64,000 nt of DNA, from positions 1,322,001 through 1,386,000 of the forward strand of contig NC_080569.1 of assembly GCF_030253575.1 (NCBI RefSeq). Direction: 5' to 3'. Positions 3,834 to 42,297 of this stretch are shown piece after piece (positions within the stretch are counted from its first letter, which is position 1; every line of letters starts with the position of its first letter). The translations under genes and the position numbers were made by a program. This DNA comes from Rhododendron vialii (lineage: Eukaryota; Streptophyta; Magnoliopsida; Ericales; Ericaceae). The notes below the pieces were generated by a model. That model worked only from the letters and a program-made list of their open reading frames with translations, made no database searches and was not told the DNA's origin.

Positions 3834-5067
3834 TCCATTGCGAAAGAGGGAGAAAGAAGTGTTAGCAATTGCTTAGTTCATTGATCTTTTGCCTGTTGAA
3901 GAAATATCCACGTCTTCAGCACGGCCACACATTCTAAAAGATCAAAAGCAATCCCCACTTACCCTGAAGTTAAAGTTGGTTATACATACTTCTTCTCATC
4001 ATGTGATACATTTCCTCTTCACCTCTCCTCCGTTATGCTGCCTCCCACGAACAGTAACGTCGTACCGATACATTCTTCATTAATGGAAAAATCAGTGACT
4101 TTAGAATTGCTTCTGGTATTAGATGTCCAACATCAGTTTGTTCTCCACAATACGTGTTGGTTATCGTTTCCTTTCTACTTTGTTTTCATTTTCTGCAGCA
4201 TACAAAAACACTAGGTTTATGTCTTAACTTTTGAAAATTATTTTTGAGAAAATTTCGTGAAAGTACTCTCCTGAGAGCAACGAATTTGTGTATACTAACT
4301 TCCAGTATGTTGGTTTCAGGATAAAGTGCCTCCGAAGAGGGCAACAAAAACATGTGGTTTTCTTAGTGTACTTAAACTCATCATCACATGTCTTTTTGAA
4401 CATGGATTTAATCATACCTGTTGCGAATAATTCATACCAAACGAAAACATCTCCACCCGACACACATCATTTTTTCACGCCACGAATGATCCTAATAGTA
4501 AAGTCAATTTTATGCACAATGTCAAATAGTTACAAACTCGTGTCTTATCTAAATTAAAACAAAGAACTGCTCCAGTAGTCATCATGTTGTGGATAAGAAC
4601 ATGTATCCTCCAAGAAAAGGACCACGAAATCCGAAATGAACAATACAGACACTTATATATGCTTGAAAAAGAGTGATCACAAAAATGTGGTACGTAGAAT
4701 ACGTCCAAGGAGGTATTGGATGGTGGGGAGGCACTATGATTTGCTAAGTGAGGTGTGCTCCACCCAGTCATGGAAAACAGAGAGCCCATGGGGATTTTGC
4801 TTTCTCCTCCATTATCACAAACTTACCATGGGAGAGAAAGAAAAAAGGTTAAAACTGCACTAGTACTGTCGTCTAGCTAGAATTGCCATGGTAGTAGTAG
4901 GAGGAGGAGAGAGGGCACTTCATCTGTTTGGCATCATGTTGCAAAAAGGAAATCTATGATGGAAGGCGGATGCGGCGAGCGACAACTGCATAGAATGGTA
5001 TACTAGTAGTTAAACTAGTAGCTAATGACACGGATAGATTACAATTCACAAGCACCATTTTTATATA
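3834..5067. other. Intergenic, no gene recognised
   Basis: AT-rich sequence with short unrelated reading frames, and a purine-rich GTAGTAGGAGG stretch near 4890. I see nothing supportable as a gene or an element with defined ends. Confidence 0.5.
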
Positions 5068-5075
5068 AAAAAAAG

Positions 5076-6745
5076 TTCGTTTAGAATGATGCGACAGTGG
5101 TAGTTTCGTACTTATGGGTTACAATAGTGAGTGTTTTTATTGGACATGTGATAGGTGCGTAAATATGTCTATTTACGTCCCCTAATTTAGGCTTGTTATG
5201 TCCATTTAGTACGCTACTTGGGATTTCATACTTGTTAATTGCGTTTCAGGATTCTCGGAGCCGATGATTAACATTTGGAGCTAAAAGCACAAAATCATAT
5301 TTAACACAAAGCCGATGCCTATCCAATTGATCCAGAGACGACCAAATTATATTGGATAACGAGAAGTACCCAATCAAATTCCTGGCTACCTTATGGAAAT
5401 TTGAAGCATAAAGTTATATAGTCTCTGCATGTGATTTGTGGCTGGGAATTGGGCCATATATTTGCCAAGATTTGTAACAAAATGGGGGAGTTTGGAAAAG
5501 GTGGGCCCATTAATTGTAATTTCTGGAAAGACTTGAGGCTGGAAAAATACAATTCTCGGTGAAGCGGCAACTATATAGACTATACCAATGGAACTTTATT
5601 CTTGCATGCTTATTTATTTTTACTCCATGAGTAGCTAAACCCCTTGACTAGGGTGATGAGGAGGTCTCTCTAAGTAGCGTAGTTAGATTTTTAGGATTTT
5701 ATATTCAACTTTTGATTGTATGACTTGGATGTTTCATAGTTTCAATGAATGTTTTAATTCTTTCAATCTTCGCACCGTATTTATATTCGTGATATTAAAT
5801 ATTGTCACACAATGGTTTTTACTGTTTCGAGAAAGGCTTTAAGATAGACTATACAACGTGAGATGGGTCGTGCAGTTGTTAAATTCAATGAGACAATCCG
5901 TGCCGTGTTGAGATAGTCTATACGGAGTACGAATCTTGATTATATTTTTGGGGATTATCGATAGGAATTGCTACCCTACGGTGGTCTGGTTTAATGTTGA
6001 ATATGAACCCTAGGTTTCGAAACAATTATGTTACAAGGGGAGACTGAATCAAAAATCTTAGTCCATTCTCTTATCAGTTTACAACTCCTTTAATCGCTTT
6101 CTAGTTTATTTTTAGTTTAATCAAATCCAAATCCAAATCCAACTTCTTTTTACTTTCTGAATTAAATTAGAAATTAATTGAAACTACTGCAACTCAGCTT
6201 TTTACTCCCTGCGGACGATCCTGGACTTAACCACTGTTCTTCGGAATACTAGTTAATTCCTTGGTTTTATAAATTATATTTTTGGTACGAAAACGACAGA
6301 CCAAAGAACAACAATAGGATATTATCATTCTGCGTGGTTGAAAGACACAAAACTCGTTGAATCATGTGCATAATATCACTTATAGGCTCATGGTTAGGCA
6401 AATTGATCGCCCTATGCTATATGTTGTATTGATAGCATTACATTAGTCTAATAGGCTCTGCACTCCAACATGAAGACTTTGTTCAGAATGATGTGGCAAT
6501 GACATTTTCAAACCTACGAGTCACAATAGCAGTTATTGTTTTGATTTACAATGAAAGAACTTCCAGGGACGCTGTTATTCTGCGTAGTTGAAGGATACAA
6601 ACCTCATTGAATGATGTGCATGAAAATCATTTGTAGAGGCTTATAGTAACACAAATTGATTGCCCGGGTGTAAAAAAAATGCAATATATTGTGTTGATAC
6701 CACTAAATTACTTTGGTGGGCTCCACACTCCAGCACGATGAATCA
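5076..6745. repeat. Tandem duplication of a ~260-bp unit, first copy split by an LTR
   Basis: The second unit (about 6482-6745) begins near CAGAATGATGTGGCAATGAC and ends near CTCCAGCACGATGAA. The first unit has the same landmarks but is split: its start lies at 5076-5147 (AGAATGATGCGACAG) and its remainder at about 6299-6476 (ATTCTGCGTGGTTG to CTCCAACATGAA). The intervening 1.15 kb is a solo LTR. Copies are visibly diverged, so the duplication is old. Confidence 0.6.
5148..6298 (+). mobile_element. Old solo LTR, Ty3/Gypsy type (Tat/Athila-like)
   Basis: Starts TGTGATAGGTGCGTAAATA and ends near GGTACGAAAACGACA. The 3' part has wording typical of LTRs of large plant Gypsy elements: GACGATCCTGGACTTA, then CCTTGGTTTTATAAATTA. 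No internal domains flank it. Limits come from comparison with the uninterrupted repeat unit downstream. No convincing 5-bp target duplication is left, which agrees with considerable age. Confidence 0.5.
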
Positions 6746-12758: not shown

Positions 12759-14440
12759 CACCAACAACATCATCGTGTACTGATTTGGATTGGTGCATGT
12801 ACAGCACTAGTCATATCATGTCCCGCAACAAGGTCAGATTTTCCACAAGCAAGGGATTTTGGTTGGATCATGATCAATTCATCTACCATATCCTTATTAT
12901 GCTCCTGATCCCTTTATGTTGACTACTACATAGATACTTTAAAGAGTGCCGCGCGCTATTCACCTAGCTAATTCATACCCACTAGACCTAGAAAGAGAGA
13001 AAAAACAAAGTCAATTAAAGCAGTACAACACTTAACCCGCAAGGGATTGGTGGAGTAGTCATATGGCAATTAGGAACCTCAGAAAGTCTTAGATCCAGGT
13101 TGATGTTCTCACCCAGGTGCTATCAATTCCTTTCTTGACCTAGTTTAAAATACTTTAATTGAGTCTGCTAATGTACAATGGAATTGGTTCTCAGAATTGA
13201 ATTAGTTGGTTCATCGAGCAGATACCGAATTGTATGTCAAAAAACATCAAATCTTGGCAATATTTGTGAACACTTTCTGCTCAAAGTCAACTAAAATTTT
13301 GCATCATTGGAAGGAGACCGGTGGAAATCCAACTAGAAAATTCTGTTCTTATAGAGGAAGAGTAATATCTTCATTGATAATAAAGATTACAATCTATTAT
13401 GTACATTTAATATAACTAAAAACTGAACTATTGCACAAGATTGAAACAAATAACACATCATATTAAATGAAGAATATACCAACGATAAGTTGATCAAATT
13501 CCGCTTTGATTAGAGAGATGTGTGATTGCAATAGAAAAGATAAGGGATTTTTTTTCATTGTATGTCCCTAATCTATATAATATAGAGTTGCGGTTTTTGA
13601 ATTCTCTATATTTTGGATCATCGGATTTGTACATATTTTTTCTAGCTGAGATATACGGGTAGTAAGACTAGAAATATACTTGGAAAGAATGAATATTTGG
13701 AAGAAGGATGAAAGAAAAACTAAAATTAATATTTCCTAATATTATTCTGATTCCTAACAGTTATCAGTCAAAAACGATTACTGTAATCTAGGGCTGTCTC
13801 TCTCTCCCTCACACGTTAATTCCAAAACGGATTCCAATTTTGAATCTAAAACTATTTTCTCTCTCACATATGTTAGCTCTCCCTCCCTCCCTCTCTCCCT
13901 GTCATTTTTTGAAATGTATTCAGATTGCTAAATGTTTAGTTAGTTGAGTGGTTGAGGGAAAAAAAATTGATTAATTATATATTTGGTTATTTGATTCATT
14001 ACAATATGCTGGTGGCAACAAATGTATTGATTTTGTTGCATCTTAATTCTAAGTCATAGTTTCATCTTCACCTTCATCGGGTTGAAAGTTGAAAGTCAAC
14101 GAAAATATATATGTGCCTGTGTTTCCGCATTGAAATTAATTTTCTTATTTAACTTAATTTTCTATTGTACATATCGCAAGGGTGTAGGGTCTATCCATAC
14201 TTAAACAAAAGAGAAGTTGTTGCGATGGATGATTACATTGATCCAATGGTTTAGGCTCATTCTACTCCTTTCAGTAAAGTGCTCACACTTTTTGCACATA
14301 TTACACAATTACTGTGTGAGTTTATTTACTCCTAACAACTGTACATTAATGTCTCTATGATTTTTCAAAAAAAGAGAGAAGAATACCAAAACTTTTCAAA
14401 TTTTGTGCTAATTTGAAGAATATATATATATATATATATA
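12759..14440. other. Intergenic, no gene recognised
   Basis: AT-rich sequence with CT-rich low-complexity runs near 13795-13900 and an (AT)n run at about 14421-14441. No gene is supported. Confidence 0.45.
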
Positions 14441-14798
14441 TCGGGGCGGTTCTGGAGACACCCAAAAAAACACCTCATAGTTTCCGATCAAATTTTGATG
14501 ATCCGAGCCGCTCAATGTAATCAGAACGTGATTTTAAGGGTACCCACGAGAAATCAGCAAAAAAATGACCGAGAAGGGCTTGATCCGAACAGTTTTTAAC
14601 TGTTTTTTATTGAACGGTTCAAATAAAATTGCTCAAATCAAGCCTTTCCTGATCATTTTTTTTGTTAATTTCTCACGGGCACCCTTAAAATCGCATTCTG
14701 CACACATTGAACGGTTTGGATCATAAAAATTTGATCGAGAACTATGAGTTTGAGATTTGGGGTGTTCTTTTAGGTATTTTTTTGGGTGTCCCTTGAAC
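14441..14798. mobile_element. Fold-back MITE, family M2, copy 1
   Basis: Two long inverted arms: GATGATCCGAGCCGCTCAAT and GATTTTAAGGGTACCC on the left recur inverted on the right as TTGAACGGTTTGGATCAT and GGGCACCCTTAAAATC. The termini share GACACCCAAAAAAA. It sits between AT-rich runs. A second copy lies at 29437-29796. Confidence 0.65.
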
Positions 14799-14805
14799 AT
14801 ATATA

Positions 14806-15442
14806 TAGGGGAGCATTCCGGGGACACAAAAAAAGACACTCCATTTCAACCATTGAAGCCAATGGCTAAGATTAGAAGTTCACAAAGAATTACTATTGGC
14901 CGCAAAGAATGACATCCAGGCACAAAAAATTACTCTTGGCTGTAAAGAATTACATTTGGCCGCAACGAATTACTCGTGACCGAGAATTCCTTTTAGTTGC
15001 ATCGAATTGCACTTGGTAGCATCGAATTGTACTTGGCTGCATCGAATTGCTTTTGTTCGCATCAAATTGCACTTGGCCGCTACGAATTGTACTTGACCGT
15101 GAATAATTACTCTTGGCTGCTACGAATTGCACTTAGCCGCATCAAATTGCTCTTGGCCGCTATGAATTGCTCTTGGCCGCATCGAATTGCACTTGGCCGC
15201 ATCGAATTCTTGCAATTCTTTGCAGCCAAGTGCAATTATGTGCGGCCAATTGCAATTCAATGCAGCCAAGAGCAATTCCTTGTGGCCTATAGTAATTCGT
15301 ACTGGCCAGAAGTAATTCTTCGCGGTCGAGAGTAATTCGATGTGGCCAAGAGTAATTCTTCGGGCCAAGAGTAATATTTTGCGGCCATGAGTACTTCACG
15401 GCGAGGAGTAATTTTTTGCGGCTAATAGTAATTCTTCGTGTC
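14806..15442. repeat. Inverted minisatellite: ~20-bp unit array turning on itself near 15212
   Basis: From about 14880 the sequence is a degenerate tandem array of a 20-bp unit of the form TTGGCCGCATCGAATTGCAC. Near 15212 the orientation flips, and the array continues to about 15442 as the reverse complement (TGCGGCCAATTGCAATTC, then CGCGGTCGAGAGTAATTC). The array is therefore one large imperfect palindrome of more than 500 bp. Its left edge has GACACAAAAAAAGACAC, resembling the end of the neighbouring MITE, which suggests it lies inside a DNA-transposon-like element. Reading frames through it are simply repeats. A second array of the same unit lies at 41640-41985. Confidence 0.75.
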
Positions 15443-16780
15443 AGATTCTTTTTCTTTTTAACTAATAGGTAAGAGAACAAAATTGCTATTCAATACAACT
15501 TGAGCTATTGGTTTAGATGATTTGGAGTTTCATAATCTGTATGGGATTAAAGATTGCAGATTTTTTTGTTGGAGTCTTTTGGGTAGACAGAGTTTCAAAC
15601 TCTATTTCATACTTGGTTATATGTAATCTTGAAACTATTTGGCTTTTCTATTTTTCTAGGTCAGTTAAGGAAACAAGTGAGATAGAGTCACTTTTGAGTG
15701 AGTGGACGTTCAAAAAATTGAATTCGAGTTGAAATCCGATATGATTATACATTCTTAATATCTTTGATGCTATTCCTGAATGCAACTAACGGAATTAAAT
15801 AGGTTTCGTAACATTTGTTGTGTTAGACTATTTTATGAACTTGGTTAGATGGATCATGTTTGAAGCTTATTTTTAAAATGAAAATTTCCGAGAAATAGAT
15901 TTTGTTGGGAGAAGGAAATTTTTTCTACTTCACGGTTACTTGTAATGCTCCTCTCGCATGAGGTGGAACCATAAGCATATCCGGAACTAATCTCATGTGA
16001 GATGACTTAAAAAAAAACTGTTGTATCCACACAAAAAACTTTCGAAAAAGTGTGATTTGATACTTCATTTAGACTATGTTTAGAAAACATTAGGCACGGG
16101 CAATTACTAGTCTCTAATAGGAAGAATGCTTTTTATACTCCTTTCACAAATCCATTCCATAGATTCAAGATTTGTTTGTGTTTGTGTTTGAGGTTGGAAA
16201 TAAATTACTACTACACCAATTAGGCTCGAGATCTATGCATGCACTTATCCTAGGTTTGAATGGAAACCATACAACAAACCTTGAGCCACAAGAGACAACC
16301 CAGGGCCGAAAACATAAATTTACGTCAATGACAGCTGTTGCCAAAAGGATTCAAAGGTAGGGGCAAACTTTCAAAGGCAACCAATTCTAGGACATAGACA
16401 AAACGTGAAAATGAAAGCAAAATGTTTGTTTGAAGTCCCGAGCTTTATCATTATGATAAGCTTCAAACAAAATGGGAGACCAGATCAGTATAGGAGTCGA
16501 TATGGATTTTCCATACATAAAGTAATGTAATGATTTCCATATGGAAAACCACCGCGACAATTTTTTATCCTCTTGCACAGATTCTGATAACAGGTGATTT
16601 TTGGATTCTGCACCCACCAAATCATTTTTCAAATACATTATTGCAGAATGCATTCCATAATCTGTAATCAAACAAGCAAACTACTATAATGCACAATGAG
16701 AACACAATGGCTCCCAAACAGCCTCATATGTTTCGAGGAGGTGAAGGATAAAAGTACAACAAATCACAAACACACTGTGG
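15443..16780. other. Intergenic and COAE 3' flank, no gene recognised
   Basis: No reading frame with a recognisable domain. The last few hundred bases probably contain the 3' untranslated region of the minus-strand COAE gene. Confidence 0.45.
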
Positions 16781-29436: not shown

Positions 29437-29789
29437 GAGTTAGGTTTCGGTAAGGGATCCCTCATTTTATTAAAATGTGGGACTCCCCTTCCCGATTGAA
29501 TTTCGATGATCCGAGCCGCTCAAAGTGATCAGAACGTGATTTTAAGGGTCCCCGTAAGAAATCAGCAAAAAAAATGACCGGAAAGGGCTTCATCCGAGCA
29601 GTTTTCATTAAACGGTTCAAAAAAAACTGCTCGGATGACGCCCTTCCCGGTCATTTTTTTTGCTGATTTCTCGCGGGGACCCTTAAAATTACATTCTGCA
29701 CACATTGAACGGTTCGGATTTTCAAAATTTGATCGGGAAATGAAAGTCCCTCATTTTGTTAAAATGAGGAATCCCTCACTTGAAAATTC

Positions 29790-29796
<7 letters not shown>
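29437..29796. mobile_element. Fold-back MITE, family M2, copy 2
   Basis: Same inverted arms as the 14441-14798 element (GATGATCCGAGCCGCTCAA, GATTTTAAGGGTCCCC, and inverted AGGGTCCCCGCGAGAAATC). Its termini are different: inverted CCCTCATTTT-TTAAAATG. It abuts the right end of the large transposon and ends in an (AT)n run. Confidence 0.65.
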
Positions 29797-29821
<25 letters not shown>

Positions 29822-29823
<2 letters not shown>

Positions 29824-31809
29824 TAAAATGCAAAATTTCAAGTCTTTCAATTAGGACCTATTATATTAAAATTTTATATTCCTTTTGTTAGGAAAAGAAA
29901 AGTAAGACAATACAATCGAAGTATGGTTCTTTTTTATACAAGACCTACATTGAGGTTGAATTTCTATCAAAGGGTTTGAAGATGCCATAATTAGATCAAA
30001 CGGCATAGATTAATGCATTTGGGGTTCTGCTTCTTGAAATAAGGTCTGACTTTTTTCGATTAAATAATCGTAGGATACGTACAAAATTAGGATACGCGTA
30101 TAAACTGTAGGATACGCAGTTGTTTCGTAGGATTTTTATACAAAAAGGATACATGATGGGATATATATCGTTCTTCAAAGGAGACGATACAAATCGTATG
30201 ATATGTATTGTGTATCGTAGGTTCTTAACAACTATGATCCCGATACGATTTATACAATTGAAAAAACGATACACGATATGTATCCCGATTTGAAAACATT
30301 GGTGATTTCTACATCGCGTTTCTTAAATCTATTAGCTAGTTTTTGATATTGTGCAATATAATTGCCTATACCTCAATCATAATGATGTCTGGAATTGAAA
30401 TGCACATGAGCCGAAACATCTTTGTAATGCGTCAAGAAACAAGGAACAACTTTGTAATCAAGTGCAGAGCTATTGCAATTGTAAAGTGTAATACTTGTTA
30501 TGGTATGGATGTTAGTTGATGCAGTTACATTTTCTGTCTTCGGCATGGGTTTGGCGGATAAAGAAGAGTGCAGACATTTTCTTACTGGCTATGTAAATTT
30601 TTATTCTTCATGTTGGTTGATTTTAGAGTTGCAGCAGATTATTCTGTCAGCTTGGGACCCCTCTGATTTCAAGCTGATCGCACTTGTCCCTTGCTACATG
30701 TTTGCCCAGGTTAGTAATAAGGAAATTCATGTGTCTTTTCTTTATTACTTGGAAAAGAAAATCAGATTATCTGTTTGTATCTTTTTCTACTGGAGTTCTC
30801 TATGCTGCTAACCGGGTGTTATCATGTCAAATTATCAACACTATGAGCATCTCCAACCCTTATTCTTCTTTGTAATTGAAATATTGAATCAAATTTGAGT
30901 AAAACCCTCCAAAAATTCACTGCACTCCTTAAGTTAAACCTAAGGTCGGTGTTCGTTAAGGCATGATGGATTTCTAGGGGATGACGAGGCTATAAATGTC
31001 TATGCGAGCTCGGCTACCATGATGGAAGCTTTAGTTCCTTTGAAGCCTTATGGGCTAAAAGAAGGGGGTTTTGCAGGGTAGAAATCCTTACGGATTACTT
31101 AATAGTGCCAGATGCTTTGTATTTTTCGGTCAAGGCTGATATTCTTGTGTTTCCTTTTTTCGTTGGATTTTATTAGTTTAGCTAATGAATTTCAATACGT
31201 ACCCGTAGCAAAAGTTCCTTGGCAACTAATAAGGGCAGCTCATATTTTAGCTAAATCTATAAGGACTTCGCAGTGGTAATGCAATCTGAAAAAAAAGAAC
31301 ATCGCATTTCTTTTCACAAACCGAAAGGAATTCGCATGCCGGTTACATTCATGATAACTACTAGCAACTGTAGAATAATTTGGAAGAAAAAAGAGCCTTC
31401 CCGCACTCTCTCTTTTGACTCACCAACCCATAAGTGGTTCAAAATGAAACACAAAGAGACCAGAGTTAAATTACAACATACAGACTTCTACTCCGGTGGT
31501 CAAACGACCTGAACCTCGATATACCAAAACTTATTTCCTATATGACTCAAAGAGGACACCTTCCAACAAAAGCACTGAACTAAGGGATTTTTTTTTTTTT
31601 TTTGCACTCTTTGTTAATTTGTAGCATGCTTTTCCTTGTTCTTATTCACGTGGAATTATCAAACTATCCTTGTGTCTTAATTCACTTTCCAGTTTCCACA
31701 TATGAAGGATAATTTTCTCAATTCACATGAATAATGACACGAGAAGAAGTGCTAAAAGATAAAAGAGGAGTGCAAAAATTACTTCCCTAAATTACAGAGC
31801 AATTGCAGA
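29822..31809. other. Intergenic; degenerate GATACG repeats at 30060-30300
   Basis: At 30060-30300 short words (AGGATACG, CGATACGA, TATGTATC) recur on both strands, a pattern seen at transposon ends. From 31110 to 31300 the sequence repeats, with drift, at 41440-41640 (TTTTTTCGTTGGATTTTAT, CAGCTCATATTTTA), and belongs to the duplicated 3' flank of the GST units. No gene is supported; see the findings for a weak exon-like stretch at 30500-30712. Confidence 0.45.
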
Positions 31810-41375: not shown

Positions 41376-41639
41376 TGAAATACGTTCATTTGAAGCCTTT
41401 GCAAAAATAAGTTCATTTGAAGCCTTTGCAATATGCTGAAAGAACGGTTTGTGTTTTCCGGCCAAGGCTGATATGCTTGTTATTCCTTTTTTCGTTGGAT
41501 TTTATAATTTTAGTTTAGCTAATGAATTTTCTTATGCACATGTAACAGATCGAAGTTCCTAGCTAGGTTGTAAGTGGCAGCTCATATTTTAACTGAATCA
41601 TCTATAATGAATTAGTAGTGGTAATGCAAAACTTTGCGC

Positions 41640-41985
41640 CCACGAGTAATTTTTTGCGGTCAAGGGTAATTTTTATGGCCATAAGTAATTCTTTCCGGCC
41701 AGGAGTAATTTTACGCGGCCAGGAGTAATTCTTTGCGGCCAAAAGTAATTTTTAGTGGCCAAGTATAATTTTTTGTGACCATAAGTAATTCGACGCGACC
41801 ATGAGTAATTGTAATTCTACGTGGCAAGGAGTAATTCTTCGCGGCCAGAAGTAATTAATTTTTTGCGGCCAGGAGTAATTCTTTATGGCTAGGAGTAATT
41901 CTCTGCGGCCATAAGTAATTCTTCGCCTTCGACCATCATGCATATAGTAATCACGCTTTCAAAACTATGCGGCCATGAGTAATTT
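41640..41985. repeat. Second array of the ~20-bp minisatellite, one orientation
   Basis: About 16 degenerate copies of a unit like GAGTAATTCTTTGCGGCCAG. The unit is the same as in the right-hand half of the inverted array at 14806-15442, but without an orientation switch. Confidence 0.8.
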
Positions 41986-42297
41986 TTAGGATTCCGACGA
42001 ACAATTAACAACCCAAAGATAAAACCCAAATCACGGCCAAACTTTCTTAATGTTTGCGTCCATCGGAAGTAGAGTTAACCGTTTATATTCGAAGTTTCCC
42101 AAAGATAATGAAAGTATAGTATAGAACACTGATAATCAAAGAGAGGATGAGAGAGGGAGAGAGTTTTTTTAGGTTAAAAGCAAAAAAAAGGTTAGAAATA
42201 GAAATAGAAATCTTATACAGGGATAAGTTGCACCTTTTCATAAAAGACACAACTCTTGGATGATGTCCATGTTTCCTGAAAAAAATACTAGAACCAA

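Follow-up and report, generated by a model that had tools for sequence, protein, structure and literature searches.

Organization of the locus

The window analysed here is a stretch of 64,000 nucleotides from Rhododendron vialii (contig NC_080569.1), and all coordinates given below are positions within it. It contains a non-autonomous Helitron copy of 2,539 bp on the forward strand (13572..16110), with an A (13571) before its initial TC, the tetranucleotide CTAG at 16107-16110 and a T (16111) immediately after it. From left to right, this copy comprises a 5' arm with a TA run at its end (13572..14440, forward strand), delimited by comparison of copies and by its end sequences; a palindromic MITE that lies within this TA run (14441..14800, limits approximate, no strand assigned), which is an additional insertion and not part of the array; the left terminal repeat of a foldback element, which starts with GGGGAGC after the TA run (14808..14880, forward strand); a palindromic array of a 20-bp unit; and a 3' arm (15441..16110, forward strand). 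The array in turn consists of a left arm of forward units (14881..15208, forward strand), a centre (15204..15228) and a right arm in which the left-arm units are reversed and which ends in a unit mirroring the outermost one on the left (15214..15440, reverse strand). The 3' arm directly adjoins the array; at this join, the foldback element lacks its right terminal repeat.

The array spans 14881-15440, with its units running forward up to about 15208 and in reverse beyond. At a threshold of at least 13 of 20 identical positions, there are 13 forward and 0 reverse unit matches to the left of 15205, as opposed to 0 forward and 9 reverse matches to its right, which confirms the central reversal reported in a preliminary description of this DNA; the turn, which had been put at about 15212, is indeed found near 15209-15213. 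The best unit match in 200 mononucleotide shuffles was 14/20 and the mean of the maxima was 11.9; single matches of 13-14 are about at chance level, whereas the row of matches of 16-20 and their order are above chance. The units are of the GCAAAGAATTACTCTTGGCC and GCATCGAATTGCACTTGGCC types. Based on the main inverted pair (15065-15208 and 15214-15357; 144 nt, 75% complementary) and the outermost among those listed (14881-14913 and 15408-15440; 33 nt, 88% complementary), the palindrome is 560 bp long and asymmetric, with about 330 bp on the left and about 230 bp on the right. Thus, of the palindrome of more than 500 bp that had been placed at 14806..15442, the part from 14881 to 15440 stands, whereas 14806-14880 is not array and instead matches a transposon end. 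The predicted folds are much stronger than those of shuffled sequence, with z-scores of -14.5 for 14806-15442 folded as DNA (20 shuffles) and -18.2 for 14881-15440 folded as RNA (100 shuffles), and in neither case did a shuffle equal the native fold. The long hairpin predicted for the palindrome is a plausible candidate source of small RNAs.

The inversion is shared across the family

We searched the genome (13 contigs, 532.6 Mb) and assembled a comparison set of 40 further stretches, of which one (L048) is a neighbouring stretch and the other 39 (L009-L047) hold arrays. A rough first look yielded 655 candidates genome-wide for the array, 283 for the Helitron 5' arm and 200 for its 3' arm, with 40 scored for each. 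In 38 of the 39 fetched array loci, the units switch from forward to reverse with the same polarity; L025 is one-sided at the threshold used, while additional pieces or a second change of direction are seen in L015, L029 and L038. The preliminary reading had been staked on arrays elsewhere sharing the inversion or common ends, and it survives this comparison. Since these 39 loci were picked by the array itself, which favours inverted ones, we also fetched six loci by the Helitron 3' arm only: five of them carry an inverted array, and the sixth, L053, is truncated.

The arrays also share a common centre, AATTACTTTATGGTCTCGCAATTCTTTGC, which with up to 3 mismatches occurs in 72 places genome-wide and in none of the reversed control. 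In the 39 loci formed by 38 fetched loci and the window, it is present in 28, flipped in 2 (L042 and L043) and below threshold in 9, including the window copy, from which about 10 bases of it are absent; L049 also carries it flipped. Furthermore, the order of the unit variants is mirrored: the consensus of the outermost unit is the ACTATTGGCC variant on both arms (45 usable of 47 arrays), the outer units being mainly of A type and the central units leaning to G type, GCACTTGGCC (45 arrays). On the left arm, this lean extends farther from the centre than it does on the right arm.

These observations bear on the proposal that the array is an ordinary minisatellite inverted once, locally, at this place, or else an assembly error. 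One-direction arrays of the unit do exist, as at 41638-41990 of the window and in L057. However, the shared polarity, the 72 shared centres and the mirrored variant order rule out a local inversion, and the recurrence of the direction switch in 38 of 39 loci makes an assembly artefact very unlikely; the probability of this proposal as a whole is in our estimate practically nil.

Within a copy, the two arms resemble each other no more closely than do arms taken from different copies (excess 0.001, reached by 28% of 2000 permutations), and this permutation test of arm likeness thus gives no sign of within-copy correction between arms. The simplest reading of the sequences is that the palindrome would predate its spread, with the arms then drifting apart independently. 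One could alternatively suppose that the palindrome is kept by selection or inter-arm repair, its hairpin having a function in small RNA production, as a replication stop or in presenting AATT/GGCC-core protein sites. The very strong predicted fold is in line with this, as is the AATT core being the best-kept part of the unit (entropy of 0.21-0.28 bits versus 0.43-1.58 elsewhere, over 1,272 units). However, ongoing inter-arm correction finds no support in the permutation test, and the AATT conservation may in part reflect CpG decay elsewhere in the unit and the consensus used for picking units; we accordingly regard such a selected hairpin as highly improbable.

A foldback element with two-ended copies

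The 75-bp left flank of the array reads GGGGAGC...GAAGTTCAC and is preceded by a TA run. The ends of the foldback element have the form GGGGAGCGTTCC, and the inner 36 bp of the terminal repeat has 70 near-copies in the genome and 0 in the control. In four short elements (L064, L065, L070 and L071), arrays of the same unit are enclosed by two inverted copies of the terminal repeat, one at each end, although the right end of L070 is cut short. These elements display the defining organization of foldback transposons, namely long inverted ends of tandem short repeats that face each other. The left flank of the window array together with its first unit aligns with the reverse complement of the right end of the complete element L064 at 86/98 positions, reaching about 20 bp into the array, and the first 80 bp of this alignment alone score 77 compared to a maximum of 35 in 1000 shuffles. 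L064 is 325 bp long, and its left and right ends are identical at 122/140 aligned bases; the corresponding figure for L065 is 124/140. A census of 73 sequences found the terminal repeat at both ends in 4, at one end in 49 and at neither in 20, with a score threshold set by us and a non-random sample in which many sequences were chosen for an end or an array.

Two of these elements have flanks resembling target duplications: L071 lies between ATTATATAT and ATTATATAA, and L064 between TATAAAGAT and TGTAAAGAT, each amounting to a 9-bp duplication with 8/9 positions matching, in L064 once one extra C is set aside. The chance of such a match per pair is about 0.02% for random sequence and about 0.5% for A+T-rich sequence (about 0.0002-0.005), and the ease with which TA-rich flanks match is a caveat on both duplications. 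The 9-bp target duplication typical of MULEs is thus seen in two copies only, with one mismatch in each. Judged by these features, the two-ended elements appear to represent a foldback element of Mutator-like habit. The window copy, which has its 3' arm adjoining the array in place of the right terminal repeat, does not possess both ends of a foldback element and is a one-sided remnant.

The preliminary description had suggested fold-back duplication as the origin of the array, repeats of an undescribed DNA transposon as its source and a flank resembling the end of a MITE. Each of these suggestions finds support in the four short elements: their unit arrays face each other inside, the 75-bp flank is inverted at both ends, and this flank is the terminal repeat itself, bordered in two elements by the target-duplication-like 9-bp flanks. 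Hence, its interpretation is supported with respect to a foldback transposon origin, while it missed both the one-sidedness of the window copy and its location inside a Helitron. The repeat probably reverses at its centre because the palindrome is the inner body of a small foldback transposon. On this reading, the change of direction is the layout of the foldback element and precedes its capture; it is not a local inversion of a minisatellite.

We found no Helitron arm beside L064, L070 and L071 in the short flanks fetched (about 20-90 bp). The left flank of L071 aligns with the end of the Helitron arm with a score of 34, which was reached by 6 of 500 shuffles, and may be either a decayed Helitron arm or just TA-rich DNA. 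L073, which follows a TA run, and L074 have a single end, and their fetched flanks likewise show no Helitron arm; L072 belongs to the Helitron-borne copies.

The carrier is a non-autonomous Helitron

Homology with the 40 further stretches extends beyond the array, from about 13571 to about 16111. Alignments to other copies start at 13569-13574 in many loci and stop at 16091-16133, most commonly at 16111, and the limits so defined are A|TCTATATAATATGGAGCAGCGG on the left and a hairpin followed by CAATTACTAG|T on the right. The 5' junction A|TC is kept in 17 of the 21 family loci with a match at that end; L039 was set aside from this count as it looks like a related but different Helitron family. 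At the 3' end, CTAG is kept in 16 of 26 loci with a match there and is followed by T in 16/16, the ends in the remaining loci being diverged, cut short or different by one base. By eye, the flanks of the copies differ from each other except in the duplicated pairs L012/L021 and L060/L061. We assign the element to the Helitron class because of its TC and CTAG ends between A and T along with these differing flanks, i.e., it has the 5' TC and 3' CTRR ends of the class and, judging from the flanking bases, inserts between A and T without target duplication. In several copies, the 3' end is also preceded, at a distance of about 10 bp, by a G+C-rich hairpin with a stem of the CCGTGCCTTTAGGCACGG type identified by eye; it is partly lost in other copies, and the window copy is without the left half of the hairpin before CTAG. 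With up to 3 mismatches, the left-end pattern is found 64 times genome-wide and 0 times in the reversed control. As many of the fetched copies sit within the Helitron, describing the array as a stand-alone satellite is insufficient.

No ORF longer than 112 aa is present in the window Helitron (intron-free listing under the bacterial code), and the two longest lie wholly or mostly in the array. The RepHel domain (PF14214) has 95 matches in the genome, a count of the domain irrespective of element ends.

The nested MITE contains an inverted pair (14461-14565 and 14657-14761, 79%) and is flanked on both sides by TA repeats. Its relatives are found at 29489-29878 of the window and in L013, L021, L023, L028, L032, L036 and L040. 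We do not claim a relationship between this MITE and the foldback end, their best local score being 34 against a maximum of 37 in 500 shuffles. Immediately next to the array, other Helitron-like ends are seen in L039 (near 3042) and, on its left side, in L015, L022 and L043, as if the A/T sites in the TA run attracted further Helitron insertions.

Proposed joining of the foldback element and the Helitron

L065 combines the two elements: the Helitron 5' arm continues up to the TA run, after which comes a foldback element that has both terminal repeats. No Helitron 3' arm was found in the next 0.8 kb to the right of it. L065 shares with L073 and L029 a native centre, AATTGCGAGACCATAAGTCATTC, L073 being without a Helitron arm in the flanks fetched. 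Allowing up to 3 mismatches, this centre occurs in 48 places in the genome and in none of the control. All five copies chosen by the native centre (L076-L080) have the left terminal repeat and the Helitron 3' arm, of which L076 retains just 42 bp, together with arrays in which 7 to 19 units were found. In 28 of the 39 loci of the window's set, the native centre is flipped relative to the terminal repeat, and the window copy most likely belongs to this flipped-centre lineage, whose arms are longer. Finally, a compact Helitron form (L060-L062, 3/3 fetched) consists of a 5' end of about 173 bp, the palindrome and a 3' end of about 176 bp, with no terminal repeat; it may be a deletion product or an older form.

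According to the explanation that we consider probable, a foldback element landed in the TA run of a Helitron and lost its right end, and the Helitron amplified it. The Helitron ends, two-ended foldback copies, shared centres, mirrored variants and native-centre Helitron copies can be read in the sequences themselves, and together they suggest the following order of events. A non-autonomous foldback element, a Mutator-like MITE with inverted ends made of the 75-bp terminal repeat and tandem 20-bp units, would have entered a non-autonomous Helitron at its TA run, after which its right terminal repeat would have been lost. The unit arrays would then have grown by unequal exchange or slippage, and the rolling-circle transposition of the Helitron would have spread the palindrome, with the flipped-centre, longer-armed lineage arising later. 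A Mutator-type transposase and a RepHel partner presumably acted in trans.

The reverse history is also conceivable, wherein the palindrome was born inside the Helitron when rolling-circle replication switched templates in a fold-back manner, and the two-ended elements escaped from it later. It could account for the compact form without a terminal repeat, and for three (L050, L051 and L052) of the five inverted arrays retrieved through the 3' arm, which are without a terminal repeat in the stretch fetched. However, the interior of a Helitron would not supply the two-ended elements with their matching repeats and target-duplication-like flanks, and the Helitron copies that keep the repeat hold, with the exception of L065, one end only, which is a degraded state. 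Moreover, the compact-form arrays are by eye without the usual outermost units, as predicted by internal deletions. Hence, we consider an origin within the Helitron unlikely and favor insertion of a foldback element into it.

Relationship to known elements

For comparison, we drew on extracts of published accounts of elements sharing one or more of these features. MuTAnT of Medicago truncatula comprises short foldback elements with ends starting with GGGG, which are found in TA runs and have 9-bp target duplications (PMC4486113). It resembles the present element in these GGGG ends, TA-run insertion and 9-bp duplications and in having many one-ended copies. However, its published terminal mask, GGGGTTTGCTAGAACA, shares by eye little beyond the GGGG with the present GGGGAGCGTTCCGGGG, so that by terminal sequence our element falls outside MuTAnT, and neither 20-bp tandem units nor Helitron carriage is among the features described in the extract of that account (PMC4486113). 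The Tm1 Mutator/Foldback family of root-knot nematodes has been likened to foldback (FB) elements, and it parallels the present element in its composite inverted ends with tandem motifs of about 14 bp, 9-bp duplications and MITE-like forms (PMC3169594). This likeness is one of description, and the extract describes no Helitron location (PMC3169594).

On the Helitron side, Mothra of rice is a high-copy non-autonomous Helitron with TC...CTAG ends and a 3' hairpin, which matches the present carrier in its ends, the hairpin and tandem blocks varying in number, order or orientation (PMC4683698). It differs in having two blocks of six direct repeats each, with no foldback-derived head-to-head 20-bp palindrome in the extract of its description (PMC4683698). 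Tetris of Drosophila virilis (PMC4079207) and the Cg_HINE elements of the oyster (PMC7492417) resemble the present array in linking dispersed satellite-like arrays to tandem repeats inside a transposon. However, Tetris belongs to the foldback elements and has 220-bp repeats, and the extract describes no Helitron carriage for it (PMC4079207), and the Cg_HINE elements are Helentrons with central repeats, for which no carried foldback element is described in the part consulted (PMC7492417). Among the matches listed from the open-licence literature, judged by title and the opening of the abstract, none named a foldback element carried by a Helitron. Thus, the components are known separately. Their combination, in which a Helitron amplifies a one-sided foldback remnant as its own palindromic core, is a new variant.

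This suggests a route to dispersed palindromic minisatellites in a plant-type genome, which would lead from a foldback element via Helitron capture and array growth to rolling-circle spread, and a single genome holds sequences resembling the intermediates of several of these steps. A simple tandem-repeat search alone would class such elements as minisatellites, and their long predicted hairpins are candidate sources of both small RNAs and genome instability. One may speculate further, though we doubt that it is so, that Helitrons serve as second-stage carriers of foldback elements, whereby a one-sided remnant, presumably immobile on its own, regains mobility and its hairpin persists by aiding the carrier. 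If true, the hairpin would aid the Helitron by acting, for instance, as an additional replication stop or a fold-back priming site, and two transposon classes would together become a source of dispersed palindromic minisatellites.

Arrays outside the Helitron

Dimers of the unit number 3,433 genome-wide with up to 2 mismatches (control 0), and not all of them are in Helitrons. Neither a Helitron arm nor a terminal repeat was found with the one-direction or nearly one-direction arrays at 41638-41990 of the window and in L057, L058 and L059, or with the palindromic arrays in L055, L056, L063 and L075. Therefore, the unit also spreads or survives by other means, and these armless arrays may be remnants or may have been spread by other carriers.

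The second array of the 20-bp unit in the window (41632-41990) runs entirely in one direction and has no match to a Helitron arm nearby. L055 and L056 are related stretches of more than 2 kb, with palindromic arrays of the unit between other flanks. L063 has two palindromic arrays (562-954 and 4763-5138) in a local duplication with no Helitron arm found, the centre of the second being the perfect palindrome TTGCACTTGGCCAAGTGCAA. L067 and L069 differ in their left flanks and share the flank to the right of the array (TCATCCTTTGATAAATTTC...), and are perhaps another composite family.
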